From: Actinomycetota bacterium
GTDB lineage: Bacteria > Actinomycetota > Coriobacteriia > Anaerosomatales > JAENZW01
Direction of reading: 5' to 3'
Assembly: GCA_016841065.1 (NCBI GenBank)
Contig: JAENZW010000009.1
Location: 1-33,082, forward strand
DNA: 33,082 nt
Made by a program: the position numbers and the translations under genes. The notes beneath the pieces were generated by a model. It was not told where the DNA came from, did no database searches, and saw nothing but the letters and a program-made list of their open reading frames with translations. Every line of letters starts with the position of its first letter. Position 1 is the stretch's first letter. Shown piece by piece: positions 930 to 29,633 of the stretch.

Positions 930-3191
930 TTGGCGAAGTCCAAACGACCGAACAAGACTGGCGCGCCCGCCGCGAGAGCGGCGACTGCGGTCGCGCGGGA
1001 TGACAGGATGACCAGCGCCCAGCTCGTCATCTGGGTATGTCTGCATCTCCTCGTCATCGTCGTGCCGATCGCCACGAGCAACCTCACGTGGCTACCCGGT
1101 CAGCGATTCCCGCTCACGTTCGATCAGTTCGACATCGTCAAGGTGTTCTTCCAGCGGGGATTCACCCTCATCGCTCTGGGCGCCTGGTTCTGGCACATCT
1201 TCGTTGAGGGTGGCAAGATACGCCGCACCAAGATCGACTGGCTGATCGGCGTCGTTCTCGCGTGGTTCGTCGTGACGACGGTGTTCTCCATCCACGTACC
1301 GACAGCCATCTTCGGCAAGTATCGTCGCTTCGAGGGCCTGCTGACGTTCTTCACGTACGCCGGTATGTTCTTCGTCGGCACACAGATCCTCGACAGGGCC
1401 TCGCGAATACGCTCGCTGGCAAGATCCCTGTTCTTCTCCGGATCGTTCGTGGCCATCTACGGGTTCGCCCAGTTCGTCGGCTACGATCCCGTTCGCTGGG
1501 GCAACCTGCCCTTCGAGGCCAATCGCTCCTTCTCGACCTACGGAAACCCCGACCTTCTCGGAGGCTTCCTGATCTTCCCGCTCGCTATCGCACTGGGTCT
1601 TGCACTGTCCGAAGAGGACTCGGTGTGGCGCGGCATCTACTGGACAGGCTTCGGCTTCACGGTCATCAGCTGGGTTACCGCATTCACGCGTGGCGCCTGG
1701 ATCGGCGGCACCATCGCCCTGCTCGTTCTTGCCTTCTGCGCATTCAGGCAGAGCGTGCGATTCCGGGAAGTGGACTGGACGTTCACGGGGCTGTTCGGGG
1801 TGGCCGTGACGGCCGTGGTGATCAGGAGTCTGAGCGCAACGACTTCGGTGATGAACGTGTCGAAGCGCGTGCAGTCGATCTTCAACTTCGAAGACGCGAG
1901 CTCTCGGACACGTTTCGAGATCTGGCAGGCCGCGTGGGATGCGATCAAGGACAGGCCCATCACCGGCTTCGGTCTGGATACGTTCCGCCTCGTGTTCCCT
2001 CGCTACAAGCCCATCGAATACGTCGCCGACGCCGGCTATCTGTCGGTCGCCGACAACGTCCACAACTACCCGCTCCAGCTCGCAGCGGCCGTGGGCATTC
2101 CCGGCCTCCTGCTGCTGTACGGGCTCTTCATCACCGTCGCGGTCCTTTCTGCGCCCATCGTGTTTGCGAAGCAAGCGAAGCCCGATCGGCTCGTCCTCGC
2201 GTCGTTCTGGGCGGCTGCGGCGGGCTATCTCTTGGCGTTGAGCTTCGGCATCTCCGTGACCGGCTCGTCGTTCCTGCTGTGGCTCTCGATGGCGGTCGTG
2301 CTCTCGCCGCTCGCCACTACCCGTGAGGTCAAGACGCACTCCTGGGGCGTTGCGGTCGCCGGTGTCGGGATCGTGCTTGTCGCAGCACTGTCGATCGGCA
2401 ACGTCGTCTACATAGTCGCCGACAACCACTATCTGAAGTCGCGCCTCATGCCGCGCGAGCGGGGTGACGAGCGGATTGCCGAAGCCGAGCGGGCAGTCGC
2501 GCTGAACCCGTGGAACGATATGTATCGGGCCGAAATCGGGCTTGCGAACGTCGACATGGTAGTCGCGTACTACACGGCCGCAGGCACTTCTCAGGACGTC
2601 GCCGAGCGCGCGTCTATGGCCGCGCAGGCGCTTCGATACTTTGCCAAGGCGGAGGCGTCGCTGCTCGACACCATCGACTTCGTGCCGTGGGAGTACGACA
2701 ACTACGTATTCACCACGAACCTCTATACGCTCGGGGCGGAGCTTCACCGTCTCAGGGATGATCCCGGTTCCGTAGATCTCATGTACGACCGGGCGATCGT
2801 GATCGGACGCAAGGGTGTCGAGGCGGAGCCATACGGTCCCGCTATCCGCTTCCAGCTGGCGCGAGCACTCATCGAGAAGGATCAGCTGGACGAGGCTCTC
2901 GAGCATATGGAGTTCGCGGTCGAGATGGATCCGAAATACGTCGATGGGTTGATTCTCCTCGGCGATATCTACCGCGCTCTCGATCGTCTGCAGGATGCCG
3001 TCGACACCTACAAGCGCGCCGAAGCACGGATCGCCAAGACCGGGGGGAGTCGCCCGAGTCTGTCGGAGTCGATCAGGACTCTCGAGCAGAGTCTCGGCGG
3101 CGGTGATGGAGCCGGAGGCCAAACAGGAACAGCAGATGGTTCCGTCGAATCGTCACGAAGTAGTGCCGAGACGACGAGCGGGGAGAAATGA
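930..3191 (+). CDS. O-antigen ligase (WaaL-like) multi-pass membrane protein with C-terminal TPR repeats
   Basis: 753 aa with many hydrophobic segments; ligase-like region 'SRTRFEIWQAAWDAIKDRPITGFGLDTFRLVFPRY...ADNVHNYPLQLAAAVGIPGLLLL'; C-terminal TPR-like 'IRFQLARALIEKDQLDEALEHMEFAVEMDPKYVDGLILLGDIYRALDRLQDAVDTYKRA'. Confidence 0.88.
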   Translation: MAKSKRPNKTGAPAARAATAVARDDRMTSAQLVIWVCLHLLVIVVPIATSNLTWLPGQRFPLTFDQFDIVKVFFQRGFTLIALGAWFWHIFVEGGKIRRTKIDWLIGVVLAWFVVTTVFSIHVPTAIFGKYRRFEGLLTFFTYAGMFFVGTQILDRASRIRSLARSLFFSGSFVAIYGFAQFVGYDPVRWGNLPFEANRSFSTYGNPDLLGGFLIFPLAIALGLALSEEDSVWRGIYWTGFGFTVISWVTAFTRGAWIGGTIALLVLAFCAFRQSVRFREVDWTFTGLFGVAVTAVVIRSLSATTSVMNVSKRVQSIFNFEDASSRTRFEIWQAAWDAIKDRPITGFGLDTFRLVFPRYKPIEYVADAGYLSVADNVHNYPLQLAAAVGIPGLLLLYGLFITVAVLSAPIVFAKQAKPDRLVLASFWAAAAGYLLALSFGISVTGSSFLLWLSMAVVLSPLATTREVKTHSWGVAVAGVGIVLVAALSIGNVVYIVADNHYLKSRLMPRERGDERIAEAERAVALNPWNDMYRAEIGLANVDMVVAYYTAAGTSQDVAERASMAAQALRYFAKAEASLLDTIDFVPWEYDNYVFTTNLYTLGAELHRLRDDPGSVDLMYDRAIVIGRKGVEAEPYGPAIRFQLARALIEKDQLDEALEHMEFAVEMDPKYVDGLILLGDIYRALDRLQDAVDTYKRAEARIAKTGGSRPSLSESIRTLEQSLGGGDGAGGQTGTADGSVESSRSSAETTSGEK

Positions 3192-3835
3192 TGAATGGCT
3201 CGCAGGTGCCCAGCACGACAGTGCGGCGGCTGCCATCGTACCTGCAAGCTCTCCTGAGCGCGCAAGTACATAGGCAGTCCGTCGTCAACTCGCTGCAGAT
3301 TGCGGAGATGGTGGGGTCCAACGCAGCTCAGGTGCGCAAGGACCTCTCCTATCTCGGCGAATACGGCACACGTGGCGTTGGCTACGACGTGGACGCGCTC
3401 GTCGCCCATCTGATCCGGTGGCTGGGTATCGAAGAGCATCGCAACGTCGCGATCGTCGGATTCGGTCGCCTGGGTTCTGCACTGCAGGGCTACGCCGGGT
3501 TTGCCGAGCGAGGCTTCCGCGTGGTCGCGGTCCTCGATGATGATCCGGACAAGATAGGACGGCCATTCGACGGGCATGTTGTTCAGGCGATCGGGGATGT
3601 CGAGGAGATCTTCTCGGCTGCGAATGTGGACATTGCCGTCCTGGCGGTGCCTGCGGCTGTTGCGCAGTCCGTCACCGACGCGATAGTCGCGGCTGGCGTC
3701 AAGGCGATTCTCAACTTTGCGCCGACACGCGTCGAGGTACCCGACGACGTGGTCGTCAGGCACGCAGATGTAGCCGCGGAGCTACAGGTTCTTGCATTTC
3801 ATCTGAGTTCTCTCGAACGACGGGCCAATGACTGA
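3188..3835 (+). CDS. rex: Redox-sensing transcriptional repressor Rex
   Basis: Full-length Rex signature: RLPSYLQAL...SLQIAEMVGSNAAQVRKDLSYLGEYGTRGVGYDVDALVAHL, Rossmann 'NVAIVGFGRLGSALQGYAGFAERGFRVVAVLDDDPDKIGR', 'GVKAILNFAPTRVEVPDDVVVRHADVAAELQVLAFHLS'. Overlaps the upstream stop (ATGA). Confidence 0.96.
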   Translation: MMNGSQVPSTTVRRLPSYLQALLSAQVHRQSVVNSLQIAEMVGSNAAQVRKDLSYLGEYGTRGVGYDVDALVAHLIRWLGIEEHRNVAIVGFGRLGSALQGYAGFAERGFRVVAVLDDDPDKIGRPFDGHVVQAIGDVEEIFSAANVDIAVLAVPAAVAQSVTDAIVAAGVKAILNFAPTRVEVPDDVVVRHADVAAELQVLAFHLSSLERRAND

Positions 3836-6934: not shown

Positions 6935-6952
6935 ATGTGACGACGCTCACAT
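6935..6952. promoter_or_regulatory. Candidate CRP/FNR- or Rex-type operator palindrome
   Basis: ATGTGA-CGACGC-TCACAT, a perfect inverted repeat with 6-nt spacer, about 90 nt upstream of the giant cytochrome start. Confidence 0.5.
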
Positions 6953-13861: not shown

Positions 13862-15268
13862 ATGTCCGGCCGCAAGTCACCTCTTCGGCACCTGCGCTCA
13901 CGCCGCCTGGCGATCTGGCTGATCCTTGGCATCGGGGTCTGGAGCGCGATTGCCACAACGATCCCGCAGGTCGCGCGCGATTCTGCGGAGGCAACGGCCT
14001 TCGAAGCACGATACGGCCCGTTCGCCGCGCTCGCGCGAGCTGTCGGCCTGGATCACGCATACACCGCGCCGGTCTTCCTGACCGCAGTCGTACTCCTCGC
14101 CGTGGCCACACTCCTGTGCGCCTGGGAGAGGACGATGTGGACGCGAAGGCGCCTGAGGCAGACGCGCGTGGTTTCGGACGGGGTCATCGCGCGACTGCGG
14201 GAGAAGCCCGCCATCATCGTTGATGTGCCACTCGGTAGCCCTTCGCCCCTCGAACAGGCGGCGGGCGCGCTCGGCGCGCTGCGCCTGAAGGTCACCACGG
14301 ATTCGAATCTCGTGACAGCCGAAGGCGGACGGTGGGGGCTTCTGGGCAGTCCGGTGTTTCACTGGTCGCTCGGGTTGTTGATCGTCGTCGTGGGCCTTGG
14401 AACGCTGATGCGTGCGGAGGGCTCCATCGGAATCCCGGTGGGTGAGTCGAGGATCGACACCGCCGAGAGCTACGGTGCCCTGGATGAGGGTTCCCTGTAT
14501 CGGGGACACAGCGGGCTACGGATAGAGGCGACCGACTTCCTCCTCAACTACATGGACGGCACCCGGCACCGCGGTCCCTCGCCCGTGCTCACGCTCTACG
14601 ATGGTGAGACAGTGCTGAAGAGACAAAGGGTGTACCCGAACAACCCTCTGCGCTACGGAAGCCTTCTCATCCACATGGGTGCACACGGTGTCTCCCCGGA
14701 GATCTCACTGGAGACCCCAAGCGGTGAAGAGATACTGAGTGCACGTCCCCTCGTGGACTTCGACGAGACGTCACCCACCGGCACCTCGCCGTCAGGGTTC
14801 TTCCTCATCGACGATGCCACTGGAACCGAGAGCGGCGTCAGAGTCGAGGTCGACCTTCCCGCGCAGGGAAAGACCAACGAGCTCGCCACGGTATCCCTGT
14901 ACGTAGAGCCCGGTGGATGGCTCGAGAGCACGGGCGCGACCGGGCTCACGCGGGGAGGCACCCTTGAGCTCTCGAATGGCGCTGTGCTGCGGGTGCAGAA
15001 CCTCGACTACTACGTACGGATTTCGGTGGCCGATGATTGGTCGGTGCCCTACATCTACGCGCTGCTGGTGATCGGCACGATCGGTCTGTCGGTGGCTGTC
15101 GTTCTCCCGCATCGTGCGGTACGGCTGTTACTGGTGGAAGATGGGGATGGTCGTAGGCTACACGTGCACACATCGCACTCGCGCGGGGATCCCACGTTCG
15201 GCGAGCGAGTCGAGAGGGCGCTGAAGGACAGGTTCTGCGATGAAGATGACAGTGGAGGTGAGCGATGA
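13862..15268 (+). CDS. resB: Cytochrome c biogenesis protein ResB (Ccs1), System II
   Basis: 'LRSRRLAIWLILGIGVWSAIATTIPQ...', 'LGSPVFHWSLGLLIVVVGLGTLMRAEG', 'YPNNPLRYGSLLIHMGAHG'; TM near the C-terminus; adjacent to ccsB. Confidence 0.9.
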   Translation: MSGRKSPLRHLRSRRLAIWLILGIGVWSAIATTIPQVARDSAEATAFEARYGPFAALARAVGLDHAYTAPVFLTAVVLLAVATLLCAWERTMWTRRRLRQTRVVSDGVIARLREKPAIIVDVPLGSPSPLEQAAGALGALRLKVTTDSNLVTAEGGRWGLLGSPVFHWSLGLLIVVVGLGTLMRAEGSIGIPVGESRIDTAESYGALDEGSLYRGHSGLRIEATDFLLNYMDGTRHRGPSPVLTLYDGETVLKRQRVYPNNPLRYGSLLIHMGAHGVSPEISLETPSGEEILSARPLVDFDETSPTGTSPSGFFLIDDATGTESGVRVEVDLPAQGKTNELATVSLYVEPGGWLESTGATGLTRGGTLELSNGAVLRVQNLDYYVRISVADDWSVPYIYALLVIGTIGLSVAVVLPHRAVRLLLVEDGDGRRLHVHTSHSRGDPTFGERVERALKDRFCDEDDSGGER

Positions 15269-16107
15269 CATCCGAGACACTCGAGATCCTTGCCATGTGG
15301 GGAGCTGTGACGGCGTACGCCGTCGGCGGCGTGCTGTACGCCCTGGGGGCTCTCTTCCGTCGCGACCGTCTGCTCGACCTCGCATTTTGGATCTCAGTCG
15401 CGGGTCTGGTGCCGCACACTGCTGGAATCGCAGCTCGCTGGATGCGCGTGGGCCACGGACCGTACATCGGCTACTACGAGGCGGTCTCCAGTCTGGCATG
15501 GTCCACGGTCGTACTACTCGGCATCATCGCGTGGCGGTGGCCGAAGCTGCGGGTCTTGGGAATCGTCATCATGCCGATCTCGTTTCTTGCCATCGGCGGC
15601 GCCATGCTTGCCCCGAAGGCTCCCATAGAGTTGTCCGGCACCCTGGCGTCGTGGTGGCTCACGATTCACGTTACGTTCGCGAAGCTGTCCTACAGCTCGT
15701 TCATCGCTGCGTTCGTGATCGCGCTGGCGTACGTCCTCCGCGAACGGCGAACATCGGGAGCGATAGCGGACCTGCTGGCGAAGCTGCCCGACCAGGCGCG
15801 CCTCGACGATCTCTCCTACCGCTGGATCGCTGTGGGCTTCATCTTCCTGACCGTGATGGTGGGCTCCGGGGCCATCTGGGCAAACGAGGCGTGGGGCCGC
15901 TATTGGGGATGGGACCCGATCGAGACGTGGTCGCTCATCTCGTGGCTGGTCTATGCGGGCTATCTGCACGTGCGGCTGACACTGGGATGGCACGGAAAGA
16001 AGTCTGCGTGGTATGCGATGCTCGCCTTGCCGATCGTGGTGTTCGCGCTCATAGGCGTGCCAGTAGTGTTCCGTTCGATCCACGGTGCGTACCTGCTGGG
16101 GTACTAG
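15265..16107 (+). CDS. ccsB: Cytochrome c biogenesis protein CcsB/CcsA (ResC), haem handling protein
   Basis: WWD-type signature 'GAIWANEAWGRYWGWDPIETWSLISWLVYAGYLHVRL'; polytopic; start overlaps the resB stop (ATGA). Confidence 0.94.
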   Translation: MTSETLEILAMWGAVTAYAVGGVLYALGALFRRDRLLDLAFWISVAGLVPHTAGIAARWMRVGHGPYIGYYEAVSSLAWSTVVLLGIIAWRWPKLRVLGIVIMPISFLAIGGAMLAPKAPIELSGTLASWWLTIHVTFAKLSYSSFIAAFVIALAYVLRERRTSGAIADLLAKLPDQARLDDLSYRWIAVGFIFLTVMVGSGAIWANEAWGRYWGWDPIETWSLISWLVYAGYLHVRLTLGWHGKKSAWYAMLALPIVVFALIGVPVVFRSIHGAYLLGY

Positions 16108-17493: not shown

Positions 17494-17658
17494 GGCGCAA
17501 GGGTATCACCCATTCTGCGCAGGGCGTATCGCACCGGCTGCAAGGCGCGTTTCCACAGGAGGCGGGGTTTCGGGGAGCAACTGTGGACCGGCTGGTGTTC
17601 TCGGCAGGATGTGACTCGCAACCTGGGAATCCTGTCAGTGAGAGAGCCAGCGCTCGCG

Positions 17659-17780
17659 GCACAATAGCCGAGGGGCCGAGCGTCGGCGACGGAAGCTTCG
17701 ATCCGACGGTCTGAATGTGGGCACCTTGACCGACGGGGAGCGAGTGGTGCAACCGGCCGTGGGACAGCGGCCGGTTTTCT
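17659..17780 (+). ncRNA. Candidate structured leader RNA (copy A) ending in an intrinsic terminator, upstream of the small tandem cytochrome
   Basis: Shares blocks in the same order with copy B: AGGGGCCG, CGGAAGCT, GGGCACCT, GACG[A/G]GGAGC, AGTGGTGCAACCGGCCGT. Terminator hairpin ACCGGCCG-TGGGACAG-CGGCCGGT then TTTTCT. Confidence 0.55.
17752..17780 (+). terminator. Intrinsic terminator within leader A
   Basis: 8-bp perfect stem followed by TTTTCT, about 80 nt upstream of the start codon. Confidence 0.7.
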
Positions 17781-17861
17781 TGTCTCGGGGGCGACTCGGG
17801 ACAAGAGGGCCGGCCACAGAGCACGCCCGGTGACTGCCGGGCCCAAGAGGAGGGGGAGGAC

Positions 17862-18737
17862 ATGCGGTCCATTCGCTGTCTCCTGGTACTGTGCGCGGCT
17901 GCGTTCGCCCTTGCGCCAGCCTGCGCGTGGGCGCTGACGTTCGAGGGCAACACGGAATGCCGCGTCTGCCACGCTGACGTCGCAAGCGGCGCGCCGATCG
18001 TGGATTTCGGAGCTTCGGCCGTCGACTTCAGTCGTTGCAGGAAGTGCCACTGGCCTGCGCGACACTGGGGCCACGGTGTCGGCGTTCAATGCAACACGCC
18101 GGACTGCCACGTCGGCTTCCCGACCCGAACGGTGTTCTGGTACAGCGACACCTACACCGCGTACGGCTACTTCGACAATGCGGCGTCGATTCTGAAATCA
18201 CCGGCAGAACTGCACCGCATCCACGCCAACGGTTCCTGGCCGAAGACAATTGCGATGGCTATCCCGTACTGCGACAGCTGTCATGAGCCGGCAGCGTGCG
18301 ATACCTGCCATGTCGCGGACCCGTCGCACGGCGATCACACGGCGGGGGCGAATCCGTCGGTCGCGTACAGGGTGGCGCCCGGTGTGGCCAACATGTACAC
18401 CTGCACCGCGTACACGGATGTGAGTTCGTGTGTTAACCCAGCCTGCCACTCGCTTGCGGCTGCGGCGGCCGGTGCCGGGTTTGAACCGCAGTGCTCGGGC
18501 TGCCACGATGTTCAGGCATCACACCACCTCCTTCACGACGCCGGAGCATCACTGTCGCCAGGATGCCGAAAATGTCACAGCTCGTACGTGGATGATGAGC
18601 ATCTCAGGAGAGGTATGCAGTGCGCGGTTTGTCACGGGGACGAAGTGGCGTCCGGCGTGATGGCGGCAGTGGACGCAGGAGATACGTCGTGTGCCGCATG
18701 CCACGGGGCGGTGTTCCACTATCAGAAGGTGCGGTGA
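17862..18737 (+). CDS. Secreted multiheme cytochrome, 8 CXXCH plus 2 CX4CH; paralog of the N-terminus of the 19209-24776 protein
   Basis: Signal peptide MRSIRCLLVLCAAAFALAPACAWA. CXXCH: CRVCH, CRKCH, CDSCH, CDTCH, CSGCH, CRKCH, CAVCH, CAACH. CX4CH: CNTPDCH, CVNPACH. SD GAGGAGGGGGAGG. Confidence 0.9.
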   Translation: MRSIRCLLVLCAAAFALAPACAWALTFEGNTECRVCHADVASGAPIVDFGASAVDFSRCRKCHWPARHWGHGVGVQCNTPDCHVGFPTRTVFWYSDTYTAYGYFDNAASILKSPAELHRIHANGSWPKTIAMAIPYCDSCHEPAACDTCHVADPSHGDHTAGANPSVAYRVAPGVANMYTCTAYTDVSSCVNPACHSLAAAAAGAGFEPQCSGCHDVQASHHLLHDAGASLSPGCRKCHSSYVDDEHLRRGMQCAVCHGDEVASGVMAAVDAGDTSCAACHGAVFHYQKVR

Positions 18738-18829
18738 TGACCGTAGCAGCGCAAATGTGGCTCGGGTTAGGAGGCTTTCGGCGGCGGGTTCCTGAAGTAG
18801 TCTGCGCAAGGATTATGCATAATTAGGAA

Positions 18830-18851
18830 GGTATACCCATACAGGTATACC
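18830..18851. repeat. Two copies of palindromic GGTATACC spaced by 6 nt
   Basis: GGTATACC-CATACA-GGTATACC read directly in the intergenic region. Confidence 0.6.
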
Positions 18852-18892
18852 ATCTGCGTTGTCATGCATCCCCGGAAGCGTTTTCGCAGCTA

Positions 18893-18929
18893 GAGGGTCA
18901 ATTTGTGACTCTCGTCACTATTGACCCTC
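18893..18929. promoter_or_regulatory. Long interrupted palindrome overlapping a putative -35 box (candidate operator)
   Basis: GAGGGTCAAT-TT-GTGAC-TCTC-GTCAC-T-ATTGACCCTC: 10-bp plus 5-bp arms. Confidence 0.6.
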
Positions 18930-18950
18930 AACTCGTCACGGTCACATAAT
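18921..18950 (+). promoter_or_regulatory. Putative sigma70-type promoter for leader B / giant cytochrome
   Basis: TTGACC (18921-18926), 18-nt spacer, CATAAT (18945-18950); predicted start about 18957, just before the leader. Confidence 0.5.
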
Positions 18951-18964
18951 CCCTCTACCAAGTC

Positions 18965-19103
18965 CGTCGGCATCCCGAGACGTGGGGGTGCCAAGGGGCC
19001 GGACATGGCAAGCGGAAGCTGTGATTCGTCGCCCGCGGAACTGGGCACCTGGGGGACGAGGAGCTAGTGGTGCAACCGGCCGTAGTGCTATGGCCGGTTT
19101 TTC
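18965..19103 (+). ncRNA. Candidate structured leader RNA (copy B) ending in an intrinsic terminator, upstream of the giant tandem cytochrome
   Basis: Same block order as copy A; extra 5' hairpin GGCATCCC...GGGGTGCC; terminator ACCGGCCGTA-GTGC-TATGGCCGGT then TTTTTC. Confidence 0.55.
19075..19103 (+). terminator. Intrinsic terminator within leader B
   Basis: 10-bp stem (one G-U pair) followed by a T run. Confidence 0.72.
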
Positions 19104-19208
19104 TATTGTCTGGAGTTCCGCCCAGGATCATCCAGATGGCATATCGGCCACAGACATCGCTGGCGAGATCCGCGCGGCTGCGGATCCGGAGGAGGAGCGA
19201 GTGTACTG

Positions 19209-22200
19209 ATGGGACACGTGAGGAAGATCGTCTTCGCGTGCGCGCTGGCTTCGGCTATCGCGCTTTCGGCGCTTCTGCCGACGCTTGCGGCAGCTGATCC
19301 ACCTGCTGCCCCGTTCGAGACCAACGAGGAGTGCCTCGGCTGCCACGACCTTGCCACAGGCAGCGGTGCGTTCACGAAGGTCGACTTCGGGGCGTCAACG
19401 GTGGACCTGAACAACTGTCGGCCGTGTCACTGGAAGAGGAGCCATTTCGAACACGGGCTCAACGTCCAGTGCAACACGAGCGGCTGTCACGTCGGATTCC
19501 CGACGCGGACGGTGTTCTGGTACAGCCGCACCTACACCCCGTATGGCTACTTCAACAGCGCAGCATCGATCTACACGGATCCCGCCACGCTGCACCGCAT
19601 TCACGTCAACGGGTCGTGGCCCGAGACTCTGAAGGTCGCGAACAACTACTGTGACTCCTGTCATGCTCCGGCGGCGTGCAAGGCGTGCCATTCGGCCACG
19701 CCAGCTCACGATCCACATGCAACGCCGACGTACCCGGCTGTTGGCTACCAGCAGGCCATCGGCACCTACACGTACGGCACCTACAACGCCATCACGACCC
19801 CCGCGACGTGCGTCAACTCCTCCTGCCACGATCGCGCGGGGGCCAGAGCGGGTGCCACCAAGCCCTTCATCCCGTTCTGCGGGTCATGCCATCCAGCCAA
19901 CATCGACACACATGGCTACGACACGGTCGATCACGTTGCGGATGTCGGTTCGGCGATCGACCCGATGGGCGGGACGTGTGGCTCATGCCACTCGATGGAT
20001 CTCCTGTCCGAGCACGAGAAGTCATCTTCGGCACCTTCTGGTCGGGGCTGCGCCACATGTCATCCGAATCCGCGAAACTCATTCGAAGCCTGGGAACAGG
20101 GATGCGAGCAGAGTGGCTGCCATGCCGTCGGCTCGCCCCAGCAGAAGCATCTGAATGCTGCTGGGGGGCATGTGCCCGCAGCGGGGAACGACATCTGCTT
20201 TGACTGCCATGACGGCACCGATCTGCCGTCGATACACGTTGCTGCCACAACGACGACACCGCTCGGCGAGTTCTCAGGCTGCAACGTGTGCCATCGGCCG
20301 GACGCTGACGTATTGAGCAACGACTGCGCGGTGTGCCACTTCACCTTCGAGGGTCACTATGACGGGACCCTGCACACCAGTACATGGACACTCTCCGGCT
20401 GCGACTCCAGCGGTTGCCACACGACACGAGATCTCATGGGAGTGCATCAGGAGCAGAACCCGGCCTTCACCTGCCAGGGCTGTCACGGCAGCGGTGTTGA
20501 GGAGGTCGTGGCTGCTATCGCGACCGGCGACACGGCCTGCGGTGCGTGCCACGGTGGAGTGACCCAAACCGAAGGCCACCGAGCCGTGCACTGGTCGAGT
20601 CCGCTACTTCAGGACGCGACAGGCCCGCACTACTCATACTGGACCGGTTCGGCTGGCACCCAGCCCACAGGAGACTGCGCCGGTTGTCATGTGAGCAACC
20701 TCGTCGACGAGCATCTCGGCATCTACGATGCCGAGACAGGCAACCCGATTCGTCTGCCGCGTCAGAGCGATACCGGGGAGGCACTCGACTGCGCGACCTG
20801 TCACGACTCGGAAGACATCAGCGTGCAGGCGGCGATTCTCGGCGGGTTCACCACGTGCGAGGCATGTCACGCGGTGCACGGGCCCATACAGGACGTGCAC
20901 GCTTCGAACTTCGTGGATACTCCCGAATACGACTGCGGTCTATGCCACGAGTCGAATCTCGCCAACGAGCACAATGGCTCGTTCACCGTCGTGACGCCGG
21001 GCGGGACCGCGCTCACAGGCTGCGACGTGTGTCACGCGTACTACGAGACCCCGCGCGGAACCGAGGTCCAAAACGCGATTTCGCAGACCAACGACACGCG
21101 GTGTTCGGCATGTCACGCCGCATACCATGGCGGCGCCGGAGCAAGTCATACGGCGAACACCACGCCGAGCATCGAGGGCTGCGGCGACTGCCATGACGAC
21201 GATCCGGACACGGATGGGATGGACGTGACTGTAGTCCATGCGGGAGCGGCTGCAGGGCCGTGTTCCGTGTGCCACGCCAACCCGGCGCGGGTACCCGACA
21301 TCGCGACGAAGACCGCGGAGTGCGCGAGCTGTCATGCCGCGAGCGGTACGGACTATCACCGCAACATGTCCGTCCACGCATCGCCGGATGCCGCTTTGTG
21401 CAGCGGGCAGTGTCACCACCAGAACCCGGATGTGACTGCAATACATCCCGCGTGCACGACGTGTCACACCGTAGTCGATACAGAGAATCAAGACACTTCG
21501 TGCACCAACTGCCACCTGATCCAGGGCGTCGACTATCACCCGAACTTCACCGAGCACCACACGCCTGTCGACGCGGGCAGCACGGACTGCGCGCGCTGTC
21601 ACGAGACGACCGACATCCGCGAGCTTCACGTCACCAACGGGTGCGAGACCTGTCACACCGGCGAGTGCGCCAACTGCCACACGCCTCACGGCGGAATGGG
21701 TGGCGGCTATCTGTTGCGCGGCACGCAGTGTTCCGTGTGCCACACGACCTCGGGGACCGACTACCATCTCGGGGCCGGCGCGAAGCACACATTCGAAGGC
21801 ATCGACCCCTCGTGCGTGAGTGCAGGGTGCCACGCGTCCAACTCGCTGCCTGAGGCACACGAGGCCCATCTTGCGCGCTACCCGCAGTACGCCGACACAT
21901 GCGCACTGTGCCACCTGAACGACGACTCCGGGCGCATCGACTGGTCGACTGCCTCCGCTGACTGCTCGTCGTGCCACGAGGTGCACGGCGACATCGACGC
22001 GATCCATCAGGCCCCCGGCTCGCAGGCCTGCGTCGACTGCCACGAGACGGCCGACGTGCGCGACATCCACCCGGCATGCGACACGTGCCACAACGGGACG
22101 ACCGACACGTCGGGAACCACCGCGTGCGGTAACACTGGCTGTCACGTCGGCTACGTCCCGCCTGACCCGAACCACTACCCGGCAGCACCGCACGCGGCAA

Positions 22201-24776
22201 CGACTGCCAGCGGCTGCACCAAATGTCACTCCGCCGATATGAAGACCGAGCACTTCAAACCCACAGTCGGACCGGTGTCGTGCGTTGAGTGTCACGAGAC
22301 GAAGGTCGACGGCTTCACAGCCGCGTGGGACAAGTCATGCGATGCATGCCATACCTCGCGGCACGGCAATCAGAACGCGCGGCACGTCTCAACGCGCTCC
22401 GACTGCGGAGACTCCGGTTGTCACCCGACTGCGGACGTGAGCGACATACACGATGGGACGCCGACATCAGGCGGTCCGGGAGGCGGCACGACCGTCACTG
22501 AGACCCTATTCACGGGTGGCTTCGAGCCGGGGAACTTCAGCGCATGGACGTCTGCATCCGGTTGGACCGTGCGAAACGACCAGAAGCGTTCGGGTTCGTA
22601 TGCTGCGCGTCAGGACACAACCAATCTCTCCACACTGGAGAAGCGAGCCAGCGCTTCCGGTCTTGCCAACCTCACACTCACGTTCTGGCTCAAGGGCAAC
22701 AACAACACGGAGGACGCCGACTGGGTGCGTGTATACGCGACTTCGAACAGTGGGGGCACGTGGACTCAGGTATCGGAGAAGACCCTCGGCGATCGCAACA
22801 GCTCTTGGACGCAGATCACGGTCGCCATCCCGGACGCCTACGCGTCCTCCGGATTCGGCTTCCAGATTCGTGCGTCGGTGAGTAGCATCGATGAATGTCA
22901 GTACGTGGACGACGTCTTGCTCACCGGCGGCCGCTACACGCCGCCGCAAACGCCTTCGCCGCCGACTGCTGGCTGCGAGAAATGCCACACGCCGACCACT
23001 ACTCCATCTTCGACGGATTGCGGTACTGCTGGCTGTCACCCCGGGCTGACCGGTGGCCATCACGAGATACACAACGCAGCTGCCGCGAATCCGACGGGCT
23101 GTGGCGGATGCCATTTCACGTACCTCGATGACGAACACCTCAACCTTGGCTACACGTGTGCTACGTGCCACGACTCTACGAGCCAGGCGGTCCAGGACGC
23201 GATCGCCGCGGGCAAGCGGACATGCGTTGAGTGCCATCCCGACAATCACTACGAGTCCGAGCAGCGTCGCTTCGAATTCAACCCCAACAACAGTTCGATG
23301 CACCGTGCAAGTGCTGATCTGCCAGGCATGCGAGACTCCTTTGTGGTGAACGGCATCACTCGCACCTGGACGCGGCCGAGCACGAGCAGCTTCCTCAAGA
23401 GCGGGTGGACCTACGACTCCGTCGTGGCCTGCTCGGACTGCCACACCTACTCCGGCGCCGTCGGGCCGCATGGCGCGACCATGCAGGTCAACATCGACCC
23501 CGCATACACGGGCGACTACGGCACGGCCACTCTCAGTAGCTACTCTGGAATCATCTGCACGAAGTGCCACACGAGCTTCAGGCCGATGAACGGCGTGCAC
23601 GACGAGGGCGACCACGACGGCAGCGATGGCCGATGCGTCAACTGCCACACGCAAATCCCGCACGGCTGGTCGATGCCGCGACTCCTTGCGTACTCGAGCG
23701 ATCCCGCGCCCTACAACTCGTTGAAGCTTCGCGGGATCCGCGTCAACAACTACTCGCCGTCGTACCACTGGGACGAATCAAACTGCGCGGCCGCTTGCGA
23801 TGATCATGGCAGCTCGGTCACGGGGGCATGGCCCTCCGGCGCTCCGCTGCCGCCACCTGAGTACGGCACGATCACCGGTCGCGTGACAACCAGTGATGGC
23901 GTTGGCATCCTGGGCGCCCTTGTCGAGATTGCGGGCGAGGGCACTACGCAGACTGATGCGTCCGGCTACTTCACTATCTCGAGCTACGTCGGTAGCACGC
24001 ACGTCACGGCCGCGGCCCCCAACTACACGGCTGCCTCCTCGACTGTCATAGTCGTGAAGGATCAGACCGCCACGCTCGACTTCGCACTCACCTACGCGCC
24101 GACGATGGGGAACATCACCGGTACTGTGGTGAGCTCGACGAGCGGCGCCGCCATCTCCGGCGCCACCGTGAGTCTCAACAACGGTTCATCTACGACGACA
24201 GCGGCCGATGGCGCGTACACGCTCGCAAACGTCACGGCAGGCACGTACACGATGACGGTCACGAAGACCGACTACACGACATGGACCGGCGCGGTCACGG
24301 TCGCCGCAGCCCAGACGACTACCCAGAACGTCGCGCTGGCTTCGGCTGGAACCACCAACCTCGCCCTCGGCAAGACATTCAACGCGACCGACTGGGAGAA
24401 CTCGACATACGCGCCGGACAAAGCAGGTGACGGCAGTACGTCGACGTTCTGGTGGTCCGACAACCGCGGCTACTACCGGGCGGCCGAGTCGATCTGGGTC
24501 GATCTAGCGAGCCAGTATCGAGTCGGCAAGGTTGAGATCGTCTGGTACGGCAACTACTGGGCAAGGGATTACAAGGTCTACGTCTCCAGGGACAACAGGG
24601 CTTGGGACAGGGTCTACGAGACCTCCAGCGGCTCTTCGGGCACGAAGACGATCACCTTCAGTGGCAGGGATGCGCGTTACGTGAAGGTGGAGTGCCGAAG
24701 GGCCGGAAGCTCTGGAAACACGGGCTACGGCATGGCGGAACTCAGGGTGTTCGAGTCGACATCCGGAGGCAACTAG
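19209..24776 (+). CDS. Giant (1855 aa) secreted multiheme cytochrome, about 41 CXXCH plus 1 CX3CH plus 8 CX4CH, with jelly-roll, carboxypeptidase-regulatory-like and discoidin (F5/8 type C-like) domains
   Basis: Signal peptide MGHVRKIVFACALASAIALSALLPTLAAA. Heme motifs counted by eye. C-terminal 'YGTITGRVTTSDGVGILGALVEIAGEGTTQTDASGYFTISS' repeats and 'NLALGKTFNATDWENSTYAPDKAGDGSTSTFWWS...VKVECRRAGSSGNTGYGMAELRVFES'. Confidence 0.92.
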   Translation: MGHVRKIVFACALASAIALSALLPTLAAADPPAAPFETNEECLGCHDLATGSGAFTKVDFGASTVDLNNCRPCHWKRSHFEHGLNVQCNTSGCHVGFPTRTVFWYSRTYTPYGYFNSAASIYTDPATLHRIHVNGSWPETLKVANNYCDSCHAPAACKACHSATPAHDPHATPTYPAVGYQQAIGTYTYGTYNAITTPATCVNSSCHDRAGARAGATKPFIPFCGSCHPANIDTHGYDTVDHVADVGSAIDPMGGTCGSCHSMDLLSEHEKSSSAPSGRGCATCHPNPRNSFEAWEQGCEQSGCHAVGSPQQKHLNAAGGHVPAAGNDICFDCHDGTDLPSIHVAATTTTPLGEFSGCNVCHRPDADVLSNDCAVCHFTFEGHYDGTLHTSTWTLSGCDSSGCHTTRDLMGVHQEQNPAFTCQGCHGSGVEEVVAAIATGDTACGACHGGVTQTEGHRAVHWSSPLLQDATGPHYSYWTGSAGTQPTGDCAGCHVSNLVDEHLGIYDAETGNPIRLPRQSDTGEALDCATCHDSEDISVQAAILGGFTTCEACHAVHGPIQDVHASNFVDTPEYDCGLCHESNLANEHNGSFTVVTPGGTALTGCDVCHAYYETPRGTEVQNAISQTNDTRCSACHAAYHGGAGASHTANTTPSIEGCGDCHDDDPDTDGMDVTVVHAGAAAGPCSVCHANPARVPDIATKTAECASCHAASGTDYHRNMSVHASPDAALCSGQCHHQNPDVTAIHPACTTCHTVVDTENQDTSCTNCHLIQGVDYHPNFTEHHTPVDAGSTDCARCHETTDIRELHVTNGCETCHTGECANCHTPHGGMGGGYLLRGTQCSVCHTTSGTDYHLGAGAKHTFEGIDPSCVSAGCHASNSLPEAHEAHLARYPQYADTCALCHLNDDSGRIDWSTASADCSSCHEVHGDIDAIHQAPGSQACVDCHETADVRDIHPACDTCHNGTTDTSGTTACGNTGCHVGYVPPDPNHYPAAPHAATTASGCTKCHSADMKTEHFKPTVGPVSCVECHETKVDGFTAAWDKSCDACHTSRHGNQNARHVSTRSDCGDSGCHPTADVSDIHDGTPTSGGPGGGTTVTETLFTGGFEPGNFSAWTSASGWTVRNDQKRSGSYAARQDTTNLSTLEKRASASGLANLTLTFWLKGNNNTEDADWVRVYATSNSGGTWTQVSEKTLGDRNSSWTQITVAIPDAYASSGFGFQIRASVSSIDECQYVDDVLLTGGRYTPPQTPSPPTAGCEKCHTPTTTPSSTDCGTAGCHPGLTGGHHEIHNAAAANPTGCGGCHFTYLDDEHLNLGYTCATCHDSTSQAVQDAIAAGKRTCVECHPDNHYESEQRRFEFNPNNSSMHRASADLPGMRDSFVVNGITRTWTRPSTSSFLKSGWTYDSVVACSDCHTYSGAVGPHGATMQVNIDPAYTGDYGTATLSSYSGIICTKCHTSFRPMNGVHDEGDHDGSDGRCVNCHTQIPHGWSMPRLLAYSSDPAPYNSLKLRGIRVNNYSPSYHWDESNCAAACDDHGSSVTGAWPSGAPLPPPEYGTITGRVTTSDGVGILGALVEIAGEGTTQTDASGYFTISSYVGSTHVTAAAPNYTAASSTVIVVKDQTATLDFALTYAPTMGNITGTVVSSTSGAAISGATVSLNNGSSTTTAADGAYTLANVTAGTYTMTVTKTDYTTWTGAVTVAAAQTTTQNVALASAGTTNLALGKTFNATDWENSTYAPDKAGDGSTSTFWWSDNRGYYRAAESIWVDLASQYRVGKVEIVWYGNYWARDYKVYVSRDNRAWDRVYETSSGSSGTKTITFSGRDARYVKVECRRAGSSGNTGYGMAELRVFESTSGGN

Positions 24777-24977: not shown

Positions 24978-26450
24978 GTGCCGGGAGGGTCTTTGGCCGA
25001 GCTCGAGGTCGTCACTGGCGACATCGACGTCATAGGGGAGATTGCCGAAGAGACGGACGATGGGCGACGTTCGAAGCGCCCGCTCATCCTCCTCCTTCTG
25101 CTCCTGCTTCTCCTTTGCGGGATCACTTCCATCGTGGACACGTGGGTCTCCTACAAGCCGGATGTCGCCCGGTTCGTCGCGCGCAACGTCGAGTGCCTTC
25201 AGTGTCACACGGAGCTCATTCCAGATATGAGTCAACCCTCGGTGCACAACCCCTTCCTCACGAAGGAGTGCACCGTTTGCCACACGCCCCACGGCAAGGA
25301 AGTCGAGCGGACCATCTTCGCCGGTGGTTCGAAGACCTGGGGTCGCGTGCGCACGCTCGTCGAATGGCTGCCGCTCAAGTGGATCATCTCGTTGTACGAC
25401 AGCGTTGCCGGAGTGAAGCGTAGCGATGAGGGTGGCGAGATCGTTAGCACGGAAACGCGACAGGTGAAGGATGTCGAATCGAATCTCGTTCTCCCCGAGA
25501 CAGAGTTGTGCTGGGTGTGTCACGGCAACCTGGGTCCTCAGGCCGTCATGCCGTATCCGCACAATCCCTTCGAGCGGGGATTCTGCACCAACTGTCACGA
25601 CCCTCATTCATCGGACTTCCGCACTCTGCTGGTGCAAGACGAACGCGATCTGTGCGTGACGTGCCATCCCATGGGGCCGCAGTTGTCGCGAGCACAGGTT
25701 CACCCTCCGGCCGGTCAGCGCTGGTGCACGAACTGTCACGACCCTCACGCCTCCAACTGGCGAGGAATCCTCGTCAGCAACCAGAAGGACCTGTGCTTCA
25801 CGTGCCATCCGAGCGTGGCTCCGTTGAGCCTCAAGGCGGTACAGCACAATCCGTTCGCCTACGACAACTGCACCGGCTGCCACGAACCTCACGGCTCAGA
25901 CTACCAGCCGTTGCTCATCACCTATCAGCCGGACCTCTGCTACTTCTGCCACGGCGGTATCCGATACGACTTCCTGAAGGCCAGTCACCACCCGGTCGGC
26001 TCGCAGTTCCTGAACTGCACCGGCTGTCACAACCCTCATGCGACGGACTATTCGGCATTGCTCGTCGCGCGAGACAACCAGCTGTGCTTCACATGCCATG
26101 CGTACCCGGTCCAGGCGACATATGATGGTTCGTCGCACTGGCGCGAGCGACTGCTGTGTGTCGAGTGTCATACTCCCCATGGCTCCAACTTTGCACCCAT
26201 CCTGCGAGACACGAACCCCGACCTTTGTCTGAGGTGTCATTCTAGGTACGAAGGAAACAACAAGCACCCGGTGCGTCCTGTGTACTACGATGTGAATGCG
26301 GCGACGGGACTTACATGCTCGTCGACGTGTCATGATCCACACGGAACCACCAAGAACTACATGCTTCGCAACTACCGCTTTCCGAAGGATGGCAACTGCG
26401 TGATCTGTCATGCCGCGACAAAGGGTGGCAAGGTCGGCGTCAACTACTGA
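24978..26450 (+). CDS. Membrane-anchored multiheme cytochrome of doubled-CXXCH type (14 CXXCH plus 1 CX3CH)
   Basis: TM 'RPLILLLLLLLLLCGITSIVDTWV'; repeated '[LF]C..CH...FC/NC TNCH/TGCH [DE]PH[AGS]S[DN]' units. Start codon (GTG 24978 or TTG 24993) uncertain. Confidence 0.88.
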   Translation: MPGGSLAELEVVTGDIDVIGEIAEETDDGRRSKRPLILLLLLLLLLCGITSIVDTWVSYKPDVARFVARNVECLQCHTELIPDMSQPSVHNPFLTKECTVCHTPHGKEVERTIFAGGSKTWGRVRTLVEWLPLKWIISLYDSVAGVKRSDEGGEIVSTETRQVKDVESNLVLPETELCWVCHGNLGPQAVMPYPHNPFERGFCTNCHDPHSSDFRTLLVQDERDLCVTCHPMGPQLSRAQVHPPAGQRWCTNCHDPHASNWRGILVSNQKDLCFTCHPSVAPLSLKAVQHNPFAYDNCTGCHEPHGSDYQPLLITYQPDLCYFCHGGIRYDFLKASHHPVGSQFLNCTGCHNPHATDYSALLVARDNQLCFTCHAYPVQATYDGSSHWRERLLCVECHTPHGSNFAPILRDTNPDLCLRCHSRYEGNNKHPVRPVYYDVNAATGLTCSSTCHDPHGTTKNYMLRNYRFPKDGNCVICHAATKGGKVGVNY

Positions 26451-26476
26451 CACAAGCAACGGAGGACGCAAGCGAT

Positions 26477-27622
26477 ATGCCCCGAATCTCCCTCGCTGGA
26501 TTCAAGGATCCTGCGCGTCGCCCTCGCTACCTGATCTGGACCGTGGCTGCGGTCTTGGGCCTCGCGATTGTGGTCGTCGTTGCCCTCGGCGTCACGTCCA
26601 CGTACTGGTTCTGCGCAAACGGCTGTCACAAGGTACAGGACGACACGATTACCGCATACAATCACTCTTCGCACGCGGAGATCTCGTGCATGGCCTGTCA
26701 CATGCCGGTGAACTCCAACCCGGTCACTTTCCTTCTGCACAAGGCCGAGGCGCTCGGCGAACTCTACCTGACGGCCACCAACAGCTACGAACTGCCGTTG
26801 AATGGTGCATCGAAGCTCGCCCTCGAGATGGACTCCGCGCAGTGCACGCAGTGCCATGGTCCCAACAGGCAGTTCACGCCGAGCGTGGGGATCATCATCG
26901 ACCACGCCGTCCACACGGACGAGGACATCACGTGCACGGTGTGCCACAACCGTGTCGCCCATCTCGAGGATTTCGATCTCGTGCTCAAGGATCCCGGCAC
27001 CGGTGAACAGAACCGAAAGCACGACGACTTCATGACGATGACGTCGTGCTTCCGCTGTCACAGCCAGGAAGAAGGGGGACGCGCTCCCGGCGGCTGCGAC
27101 GCGTGTCACCCCGCGGATTTCGAACTGAAGCCTGCGAACCATCTCGAGCCGGGCTTCTACGAGCGCGGGGGTGACTCGGCCGGGCACGCGAGCCTTGCCC
27201 TTGCGTCGAGGGATGCAGCCGCGGAGCAGACGGCGACCGCGGGTGAGGCCGCCACGGACGCCGCCGGGGAAGAAGAGCTTGTGCCGCCGCGCGAGATATT
27301 CTACTGCGGTACGTGTCATGCAGAGTCGTTCTGCGAGGACTGTCACGGCATCTCCATGCCGCACCCTGGGGATTTCGCGAAGGGACACGGCGATGTCGGC
27401 AAGAGCACTCCCGGCGTGTGCGCGAACTGCCACGCGAAGGGTGGAGCCAGCGTGAAGGGTCTGGAGTTCTGCAATTCATGCCATCATCCGCAGGGTGATC
27501 CGACCAAGGCGTGGATACCGCAGCACTTCACCGTTGTCCTTGAGACTGGCGCCGACGCTTGTTTCGACTGTCACAATCCGACATACTGCGCCGAGTGCCA
27601 CGTGGCCGGAATCGTGAAGTAG
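26477..27622 (+). CDS. NapC/NirT-like membrane-anchored multiheme cytochrome (11 CXXCH plus first-heme CX3CH)
   Basis: N-terminal TM then 'STYWFCANGCHKVQDDTITAYNHSSHAEISCMACHMPVNSNPVTFLLHKAEALGELYL', the NapC/NirT layout. Further CTQCH, CTVCH, CFRCH, CDACH, CGTCH, CEDCH, CANCH, CNSCH, CFDCH, CAECH. Confidence 0.87.
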   Translation: MPRISLAGFKDPARRPRYLIWTVAAVLGLAIVVVVALGVTSTYWFCANGCHKVQDDTITAYNHSSHAEISCMACHMPVNSNPVTFLLHKAEALGELYLTATNSYELPLNGASKLALEMDSAQCTQCHGPNRQFTPSVGIIIDHAVHTDEDITCTVCHNRVAHLEDFDLVLKDPGTGEQNRKHDDFMTMTSCFRCHSQEEGGRAPGGCDACHPADFELKPANHLEPGFYERGGDSAGHASLALASRDAAAEQTATAGEAATDAAGEEELVPPREIFYCGTCHAESFCEDCHGISMPHPGDFAKGHGDVGKSTPGVCANCHAKGGASVKGLEFCNSCHHPQGDPTKAWIPQHFTVVLETGADACFDCHNPTYCAECHVAGIVK

Positions 27623-27669
27623 GGGAGCTTGCCGGTCACCCAAGCGTCTTGCACGCCGAAGGAGCCCAC

Positions 27670-28374
27670 ATGTTCGACAGAATCACACGCTGGCTCGCCT
27701 ATGCTGTGTTCGTCCTCATCCTGGCCATCCTCACGCTGGCCTTCTACATAGTGTGGACAGGGGTGTTGAGGCCGCAGCCGCCGCGAACGTACATCGAGCG
27801 GGATCTTTCGCGACTTGAGAGCGTGGTCGAAGCCAAGCCTCAGGTTGCAGAGGGTTGGCGCGACTATCTGAGGACCCTTACTGCGGCAGGGATGTACTCG
27901 AAGGCCCATCGGGTTGCTGACGAGGCACGCTCCGTGCTCGCGAGCGATTCCGCCACTATCGACATCGAGGAGGCGCGCATCTACCTGGCCGAAGCAGACG
28001 TGGAGACCGCACGCACGACCGTCGACACTGCAATCAGCAGCCAGGAAGACGCGCTCGACCGCAAGCTGGCCGAGCTGAATGCGCAGGGAATCCGGGTGGA
28101 ACGCTCGTACATCCAGGGTGGCGAGACCCTCCTGGAGGCCTACATCCTCAAGGCGCAGATACTCTCGGTGCTCGAGGAGTGGGAGGATGCCGCAGCGGCG
28201 TACTCCCAATCGCTGGAGATGAGCCCTGCAATGGCGGACGTTCTCGTTGCGCGCGGCTTCGTCTATTTGAAGCTCGAAGACACATCGAAGGCGAAGAAGG
28301 ACTTCGACAGAGCACTTCAGTTCGATCCCGAACTCGAGACAGCGAAAGCCGGACTTAAGGAGATCGGACAGTGA
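27670..28374 (+). CDS. Membrane-anchored TPR-repeat protein (second copy of TPR-NHL module)
   Basis: ATG 27670 'MFDRITRWLAYAVFVLILAILTLAFYIVWTG' TM; TPR-like 'LLEAYILKAQILSVLEEWEDAAAAYSQSLEMSPAMADVLVARGFVYLKLEDTSKAKKDFDRALQFDPEL'. Confidence 0.85.
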   Translation: MFDRITRWLAYAVFVLILAILTLAFYIVWTGVLRPQPPRTYIERDLSRLESVVEAKPQVAEGWRDYLRTLTAAGMYSKAHRVADEARSVLASDSATIDIEEARIYLAEADVETARTTVDTAISSQEDALDRKLAELNAQGIRVERSYIQGGETLLEAYILKAQILSVLEEWEDAAAAYSQSLEMSPAMADVLVARGFVYLKLEDTSKAKKDFDRALQFDPELETAKAGLKEIGQ

Positions 28375-29633
28375 CGCGCGAGAATCGCGACGAGAACGCC
28401 GGAGCCAACCGAACCAGGATCGTACTGGTTGCGATACTGGTGCTGCTGTTCCTTCTGCTGATTGTGTTGGGGATGTTCACGTTCCGCCTGCTGCGGCCAT
28501 CTGGGGCGCCGGACGCCAAGTCACTGCCTCCGGGCATCGAGTGGGTGCGTTCGATATACGGCTACGGACCCTCAGAGGGGGAGCAGTTCTACCGGCCCAC
28601 AGACGCGGATGTGGCTCCGGACGGGACCATCTGGGGAGTTGACAGGGCGCGCGCACGGATTCTCGGCTTCAATCCGGACGGCTCCTTCAAGCGGATCATA
28701 TCGACGGGCGAGGCGACGCCCAATCAGCCTGGACGAATGTATCTGCCATCGGGAATCTCCACGGATGAAGACGGCAACGTCTACGTGTGCGACTACGGCA
28801 GTGAGAAGGTGCTCGTGTTCTCGCCCGCGGGTGAGTTCCTGCTCGAGTGGCCGGTGCCGTTGCCCACCGACTGTGACGTACTAGGCGAGACTGTCGCGGT
28901 GTGCTCGGCGTACGGCGTCGCGCTTTTCGACAGGCAGGGCACGCTCATCACGTTCTTCGGGACGCGGGGTCCACGCGAGGAGCAGTTCGATCTACCTCAT
29001 GGCATCGCCATCGCAGATGACGGTACGGTGTACGTGTCTGACACCCAGAACAGCAGAGTGAAGGCATACACACAGGGCGGTGACCTGCTGTGGTCAGTCG
29101 GCGAGCGGCGCGGGGTGTCGAGCGAGGCCACGGAAGGCGCCTCGCCGTTCCAGATTCCCTCCGGCATGGTGATTGATGACAACGGGAGGATCGTGCTGGT
29201 CGATCCTTTCGAGTTCCAGCTCATCGTTCTAGACCCGACCAAGGATGGGGAGATCGTCGGGCGGTACGGTGAGTTCGGTGTAGAAGACGGCAGATTCGTC
29301 TACCCCACGGGAGTCGGATACGATCCGTCGCGCGACTGGTTCGTCGTCGCCGACACGACGAACGACCGTCTTCAGGTCGTGCGGATTCCGGGGAGTTCCT
29401 CCAACCCGTTGGCTGCCGTCCGAAGGTTCTTCACGGGTCCGTGGTGGATATGCGCTGTCCCGCTTGCCCTGTTGTTGATCGCTGCGATTGTGGCTTTGAC
29501 GTCGCGCCGCCGCCGCAAAGATGGTGATAGACGGAGAGACGGGGAATTCCCGTCGAGGTCAGATACCACTGATGGTATCGAGGCCACACAAGATAGCGAA
29601 ATCGTTGAAGTCGAAGACCCTTCAAGCCGATAA
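28371..29633 (+). CDS. NHL-repeat beta-propeller protein with N- and C-terminal TM segments
   Basis: 'LPSGISTDEDGNVYVCDYGSEKVLVFSPAGEFLLEW', 'LPHGIAIADDGTVYVSDTQNSRVKAYTQGGDLLWSVGE'; TMs 'RIVLVAILVLLFLLLIVLGMFTF' and 'WWICAVPLALLLIAAIVAL'. ATGA-type overlap with the TPR gene (start GTG). Confidence 0.92.
   Translation: MTRENRDENAGANRTRIVLVAILVLLFLLLIVLGMFTFRLLRPSGAPDAKSLPPGIEWVRSIYGYGPSEGEQFYRPTDADVAPDGTIWGVDRARARILGFNPDGSFKRIISTGEATPNQPGRMYLPSGISTDEDGNVYVCDYGSEKVLVFSPAGEFLLEWPVPLPTDCDVLGETVAVCSAYGVALFDRQGTLITFFGTRGPREEQFDLPHGIAIADDGTVYVSDTQNSRVKAYTQGGDLLWSVGERRGVSSEATEGASPFQIPSGMVIDDNGRIVLVDPFEFQLIVLDPTKDGEIVGRYGEFGVEDGRFVYPTGVGYDPSRDWFVVADTTNDRLQVVRIPGSSSNPLAAVRRFFTGPWWICAVPLALLLIAAIVALTSRRRRKDGDRRRDGEFPSRSDTTDGIEATQDSEIVEVEDPSSR

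Follow-up and report, generated by a model that had tools for sequence, protein, structure and literature searches.

Class II c-di-GMP riboswitches are known from C. difficile, where RF01786 switches accompany the pilin operon, CD2831 and cmrRST. These RNAs are transcriptional ON switches, and their targets are adhesins, pili and a signaling system (PMC11477304). A second relevant precedent comes from Geobacter, which regulates extracellular electron transfer by a cyclic dinucleotide through a different RNA class: cGAMP-responsive GEMM-Ib riboswitches that switch on extracellular cytochrome operons (PMC6456294). Here, we analyzed two leader RNAs upstream of tandem multiheme cytochrome genes in a 33,082-nucleotide stretch (the window) from a bacterium of the actinobacterial order Anaerosomatales. 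Aptamer sequence, pseudoknot, pocket and ON architecture are as in the C. difficile switches, whereas the targets are multiheme cytochromes and the hosts are high-GC actinobacteria. The Geobacter RNAs use an unrelated class I aptamer with cGAMP as the ligand, in contrast to the class II aptamer and predicted c-di-GMP pocket of the leaders studied here. The c-di-GMP-II-GAG variant (RF03169) has the same fold as the canonical copies and occurs 82 times in the same genomes. We conclude with high confidence that both leaders are c-di-GMP-II riboswitches of the transcriptional ON type and control cytochromes.

The open literature that we searched contains no paper on c-di-GMP-II with cytochromes, and within it both the cytochrome regulon and the split between canonical and GAG versions look undescribed. 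Some anaerobic actinobacteria of this group are Fe(III) reducers. Across an entire order of underground actinobacteria, this c-di-GMP switch appears to turn on giant electron-carrying heme proteins, and these distant anaerobes seem to reach the logic of Geobacter using class II switches. Regulation by cyclic dinucleotides may thus be a general solution for large extracellular cytochromes.

Class and structure of the leader RNAs

Searching the window with cmscan against Rfam 15 returned exactly two matches, both to c-di-GMP-II (RF01786), which correspond to leaders A and B (Table 1). Both are full length (1-84) and score above the gathering threshold of 53.5 bits, with E-values over the whole window that rule out a chance match. 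By sequence comparison, the two leaders therefore belong to a known class, and the RNA class is not new. A sequence-only reading of this DNA had placed conserved blocks upstream of 17862 and 19209, where we also locate them, and had proposed transcription attenuation by RNAs of a class that it did not recognize. Attenuation by a small ligand upstream of the cytochromes is supported by our analysis; an unknown RNA class was rejected, as the cmscan run that this reading had proposed assigned both leaders to RF01786. The same reading was right that GEMM signatures are absent, which is explained by class II having no motif in common with GEMM/c-di-GMP-I. RF01051 (c-di-GMP-I/GEMM) had no covariance-model match in the window, leaders included, and a GEMM-I identity was rejected. 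A separate RF01051 copy lies elsewhere in the genome (G000:C175:5694-5786). Nor do the leaders carry the hallmarks of the GAG variant (C37, G69, a U-A pseudoknot pair and a GAGACC core): copies A and B have U37, A69 and GCAACC, and RF01786 outscores RF03169 in both (59.9 versus 50.0 bits in copy A; 64.3 versus 51.2 bits in copy B).

The conserved blocks map onto the parts of the aptamer. CGGAAGC contributes to P1/P2, GACGNGGAGC to P3/P2, and GCAACCGG to the ligand pocket and the start of the P1 3' strand, whereas GGGCACC and GGTGC form the pseudoknot (GGGCAC/GUGC). The GCACC/GGTGC pairing described earlier is real: it is the class II pseudoknot, 100% paired in 32 relatives, and 10 sequences carry a double change from A-U to G-C. 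Conservation covers a longer unit than previously noted, from a 5' hairpin (starting at 17650 and 18962) through the terminators.

Comparison with the c-di-GMP contacts in structure 3Q3Z (PMC7288161) matched 12 of the 13 contact nucleotides in copy B and 11 of 13 in copy A. The core from U37 to G73 is complete; its contacts (U37, G39, C68, A69, A70, C71, C72 and G73) are invariant in 32/32 canonical relatives and in both copies, and A13, A14 and A61 are also kept in A and B. The pocket differs from 3Q3Z at U60, which is G in copy A and breaks one P2 pair, and at A74, which is G in all copies, the window's two included. A 25-pair structure including the pseudoknot is paired in 85.4% of cells, and 18 pairs show double changes. 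Its covariation score of 0.378 exceeds the 0.186 of shuffled alignments (0/500 shuffles as high), a test inflated by sequence relatedness; slid controls, which preserve relatedness, gave 0.064 to 0.126. The class II fold was not recovered when the aptamers were folded by MFE, as expected for a pseudoknot, and the covariance model was used instead.

Table 1. Leader RNAs, control elements and genes in the central and 3' part of the window (E-values over the whole window)
Feature	Position	Strand	Details
5' hairpin, leader A	17650..17683	+	11 pairs; one-sided AGGGGC bulge
c-di-GMP-II aptamer copy A (RF01786)	17682..17765	+	59.9 bits, E 4.4e-11
Intrinsic terminator A	17751..17776	+	10 pairs, -18.8 kcal/mol, tail TTCTTGTC; overlaps aptamer 3' strand and ligand-contact bases
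Octaheme cytochrome	17862..18737	+	291 aa, 8 CXXCH
CRP-type operator TGTGACTCTCGTCACT	18904..18919	+	9/10 match
Sigma-70-like promoter, leader B	18921..18950	+	TTGACC-18-CATAAT; sole promoter-like site in 17500-19300
5' hairpin, leader B	18962..19004	+	13 pairs; one-sided AAGGGGC bulge
c-di-GMP-II aptamer copy B (RF01786)	19006..19090	+	64.3 bits, E 2.4e-12
Intrinsic terminator B	19074..19099	+	11 pairs, -17.4 kcal/mol, tail TTTCTATT; overlaps aptamer 3' strand and ligand-contact bases
Giant multiheme cytochrome	19209..24776	+	1855 aa, 41 CXXCH, MtrC-like domain; C-terminal carboxypeptidase-regulatory and F5/8-type domains
Co-directional genes	24978..29633	+	14-CXXCH doubled-CXXCH cytochrome, NapC/NirT-type cytochrome (11 CXXCH), TPR protein, NHL protein

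Conservation and linkage to cytochromes

Of 400 genomes sampled across the bacterial class, 51 contain RF01786 matches, and every one of these belongs to the window's order. Within this order (69 genomes), sorting of the copies by core motif gave 34 canonical (GCAACC) and 82 GAG (GAGACC) aptamers. Where at least 1 kb of downstream sequence could be read, a multiheme cytochrome, defined by at least eight CXXCH motifs in the stretch read, follows 27/30 canonical versus 0/77 GAG copies (Fisher P = 2.6e-22, uncorrected for relatedness). In the three canonical copies that no cytochrome follows, the P1 sequence is GAG-like. The 30 copies include one GCAACC copy that the motif rule missed (G080:C8:234381), which comes on top of the 34 and counts as a non-cytochrome case. 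Cytochrome-linked leaders span 16 genera and 7 families, and the 27 linked cytochromes are homologues of the window's cytochromes, with identities mostly of ~28 to 49%. As the cytochromes are all homologous, the association represents one old inherited linkage maintained through deep divergence, not many independent events. The switch is not indispensable, since close cytochrome homologues in genomes G066 and G074 lack it.

Scanning the genomes of 85,462 species for the sequence pattern uncovered 67 further copies outside the order, in Chloroflexota, Thermaceae, Rubrobacteraceae, Clostridia, Bacilli and other groups. Of these canonical copies, 56 have 600 nt or more of downstream sequence, and none is followed by a multiheme protein; inside the order, the same scan found one after 12/12 testable copies.

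Terminator overlap and the proposed ON switch

Terminators precede both start codons, as the sequence-only reading had pointed out, at distances of 85 nt in leader A and 109 nt in leader B, and their stems vary compatibly, with a G-C pair in A and a G-U pair plus two further pairs in B. They are the only terminator-like sites in 17500-19300, where shuffled sequences average 1.0. In both, the 5' arm, AACCGGCC, starts with A69 of the pocket (17751 and 19074) and consists of pocket bases A69 to G73 plus the P1 3' strand. Because the arm shares these bases with pocket and P1, the ligand-bound aptamer and the terminator are predicted to be mutually exclusive, which argues for an ON switch. Without c-di-GMP, AACCGGCC would pair with the downstream GGCCGGTT to build the terminator, and transcription would end before the cytochrome gene. 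Upon c-di-GMP binding, the same bases would be locked in the ligand pocket and aptamer P1, no terminator would form, and RNA polymerase would continue into the cytochrome gene. After copy B, read-through probably reaches several further electron-transfer genes: the co-directional genes at 24978..29633 probably share its transcript, with no terminator-like site found before 31054. Giant extracellular multiheme cytochromes would thus be made at high c-di-GMP, presumably during surface attachment.

Across the order, a terminator overlapping the aptamer accompanies 24/34 canonical and 71/82 GAG copies versus 101/590 shuffled downstream sequences (both classes pooled). By the rule used, it is missing in 10/34 canonical copies, some of which must work differently. 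These copies could speak for leaders that work as OFF switches or at the level of translation instead of termination. For the leaders of the window such behavior is very unlikely, given terminator arms made of the aptamer's own pocket bases and the resulting exclusion of ligand-bound and terminated states. Improbable, too, is that the natural ligand of the same aptamer and platform is another cyclic dinucleotide, e.g., 3',3'-cGAMP, even though cGAMP-selective GEMM-Ib switches control cytochromes in Geobacter (PMC6456294) and the order has two further c-di-GMP riboswitch types, making more than one signal conceivable. The eight core contacts, U37 to G73, all match the bases of class II c-di-GMP aptamers in 32/32 relatives. 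The GGDEF domains of the genome, 16 in number, also argue against cGAMP: the substrate motif is GHxxGD in all nine domains where it is readable (seven are unreadable), with no instance of GHxxGS, the change that marks cGAMP-making Hypr enzymes.

The two cytochromes lie in tandem and are 49% identical over 251 aa, and the leaders might accordingly resemble each other only through tandem DNA duplication, with no regulatory role. We regard this as barely credible. Similarity between the copies is confined to a structured 47-nt block (17732-17778 versus 19055-19101; 83% identical, ungapped), outside which the leaders have diverged, and 31 genomes of the order conserve leaders of this kind, which show covariation. 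Recent duplication alone, which the sequence-only reading had itself named as the alternative to its proposal, was rejected on the basis of this conservation and the strong covariation. A c-di-GMP-dependent ON switch therefore stands as our preferred reading.

Canonical and GAG versions

Positions 37, 40, 68 and 69 are U, G, C and A in 34/34 canonical copies and C, U, A and G in 81/82 GAG copies. Between the versions, U37 becomes C, A69 becomes G and the pseudoknot pair G40-C68 becomes U-A, so that the change at two contact bases goes hand in hand with that of one pseudoknot pair. Both versions coexist in 26 genomes, where their kinds of target do not overlap. The GAG targets read are mostly large secreted proteins, many of which end in an LPFTGG sorting signal (LPxTG-type, sortase-anchored surface proteins); that of the window's genome is a protein of 1840 aa with SdrD_B repeats, an LPFTG end and a PP-rich segment, and a sortase gene lies nearby. 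The regulons may be separate because the U37-A69 and C37-G69 versions read two different cyclic dinucleotides, or the same one at widely differing concentrations, a suggestion that we put forward only tentatively. If the two-signal reading holds true, the GAG variant would have a distinct physiological role. The strict split in 26 genomes provides a clean natural system for testing GAG sensing.

Convergent to this GAG target, in locus L223 (G000:C175:4500-14500), a c-di-GMP-I switch lies ~90 nt before the gene for a secreted protein of 207 aa that contains an HEVWH motif, and a similar GAG/c-di-GMP-I pair occurs in genome G003 (L224). The arrangement resembles that in C. difficile, where PPEP-1 is under a class I OFF switch and its adhesin substrates are under class II ON switches. 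c-di-GMP-I is present in 56/69 genomes of the order, usually as one copy and often convergent to a GAG copy at ~3-6 kb.

Upstream operators and 5' hairpins

TGTGA-N6-TCACA palindromes, counted at 9 or 10 matches of 10 within 200 nt upstream, accompany 20/34 canonical and 24/82 GAG copies versus 1/590 shuffles. Upstream of leader B, such an operator adjoins the promoter, which suggests a second control, at initiation. TGTGAN6TCACW occurs at only four places in the whole 2.34-Mb genome, three of which are close to multiheme genes, and the G066 and G074 homologues without a riboswitch still carry perfect operators. Further CRP-type palindromes occur at 6936-6951 of the window and at G000:C59:2852-2867. 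Candidate owners of these sites are a CRP-family protein or Rex. The window encodes a Rex-type redox-sensing repressor (3188-3835, + strand; NCBIfam NF003992) within the same cytochrome gene cluster. The half-sites, however, are mostly TGTGAC, not TGTGAA as for Rex, and the genome also encodes a CRP-family protein with the helix SRETASR (L238).

A hairpin with an AGGGGC bulge directly 5' of the aptamer recurs in canonical leaders of the order. Hairpins of at least 10 pairs were found in 14/34 canonical leaders versus ~10% of shuffled sequences retaining GGGG, and AGGGGC lies just upstream of the aptamer in 21/34 canonical, 4/82 GAG and 2/66 outside copies.

The window has nine open frames with at least three CXXCH motifs, and ResB and CcsA-type cytochrome c assembly genes (13862-16107, + strand) lie inside the cytochrome cluster. 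Between the tandem cytochromes, two GGTATACC palindromes are spaced 6 nt apart at 18830-18851 (GGTATACCcatacaGGTATACC).
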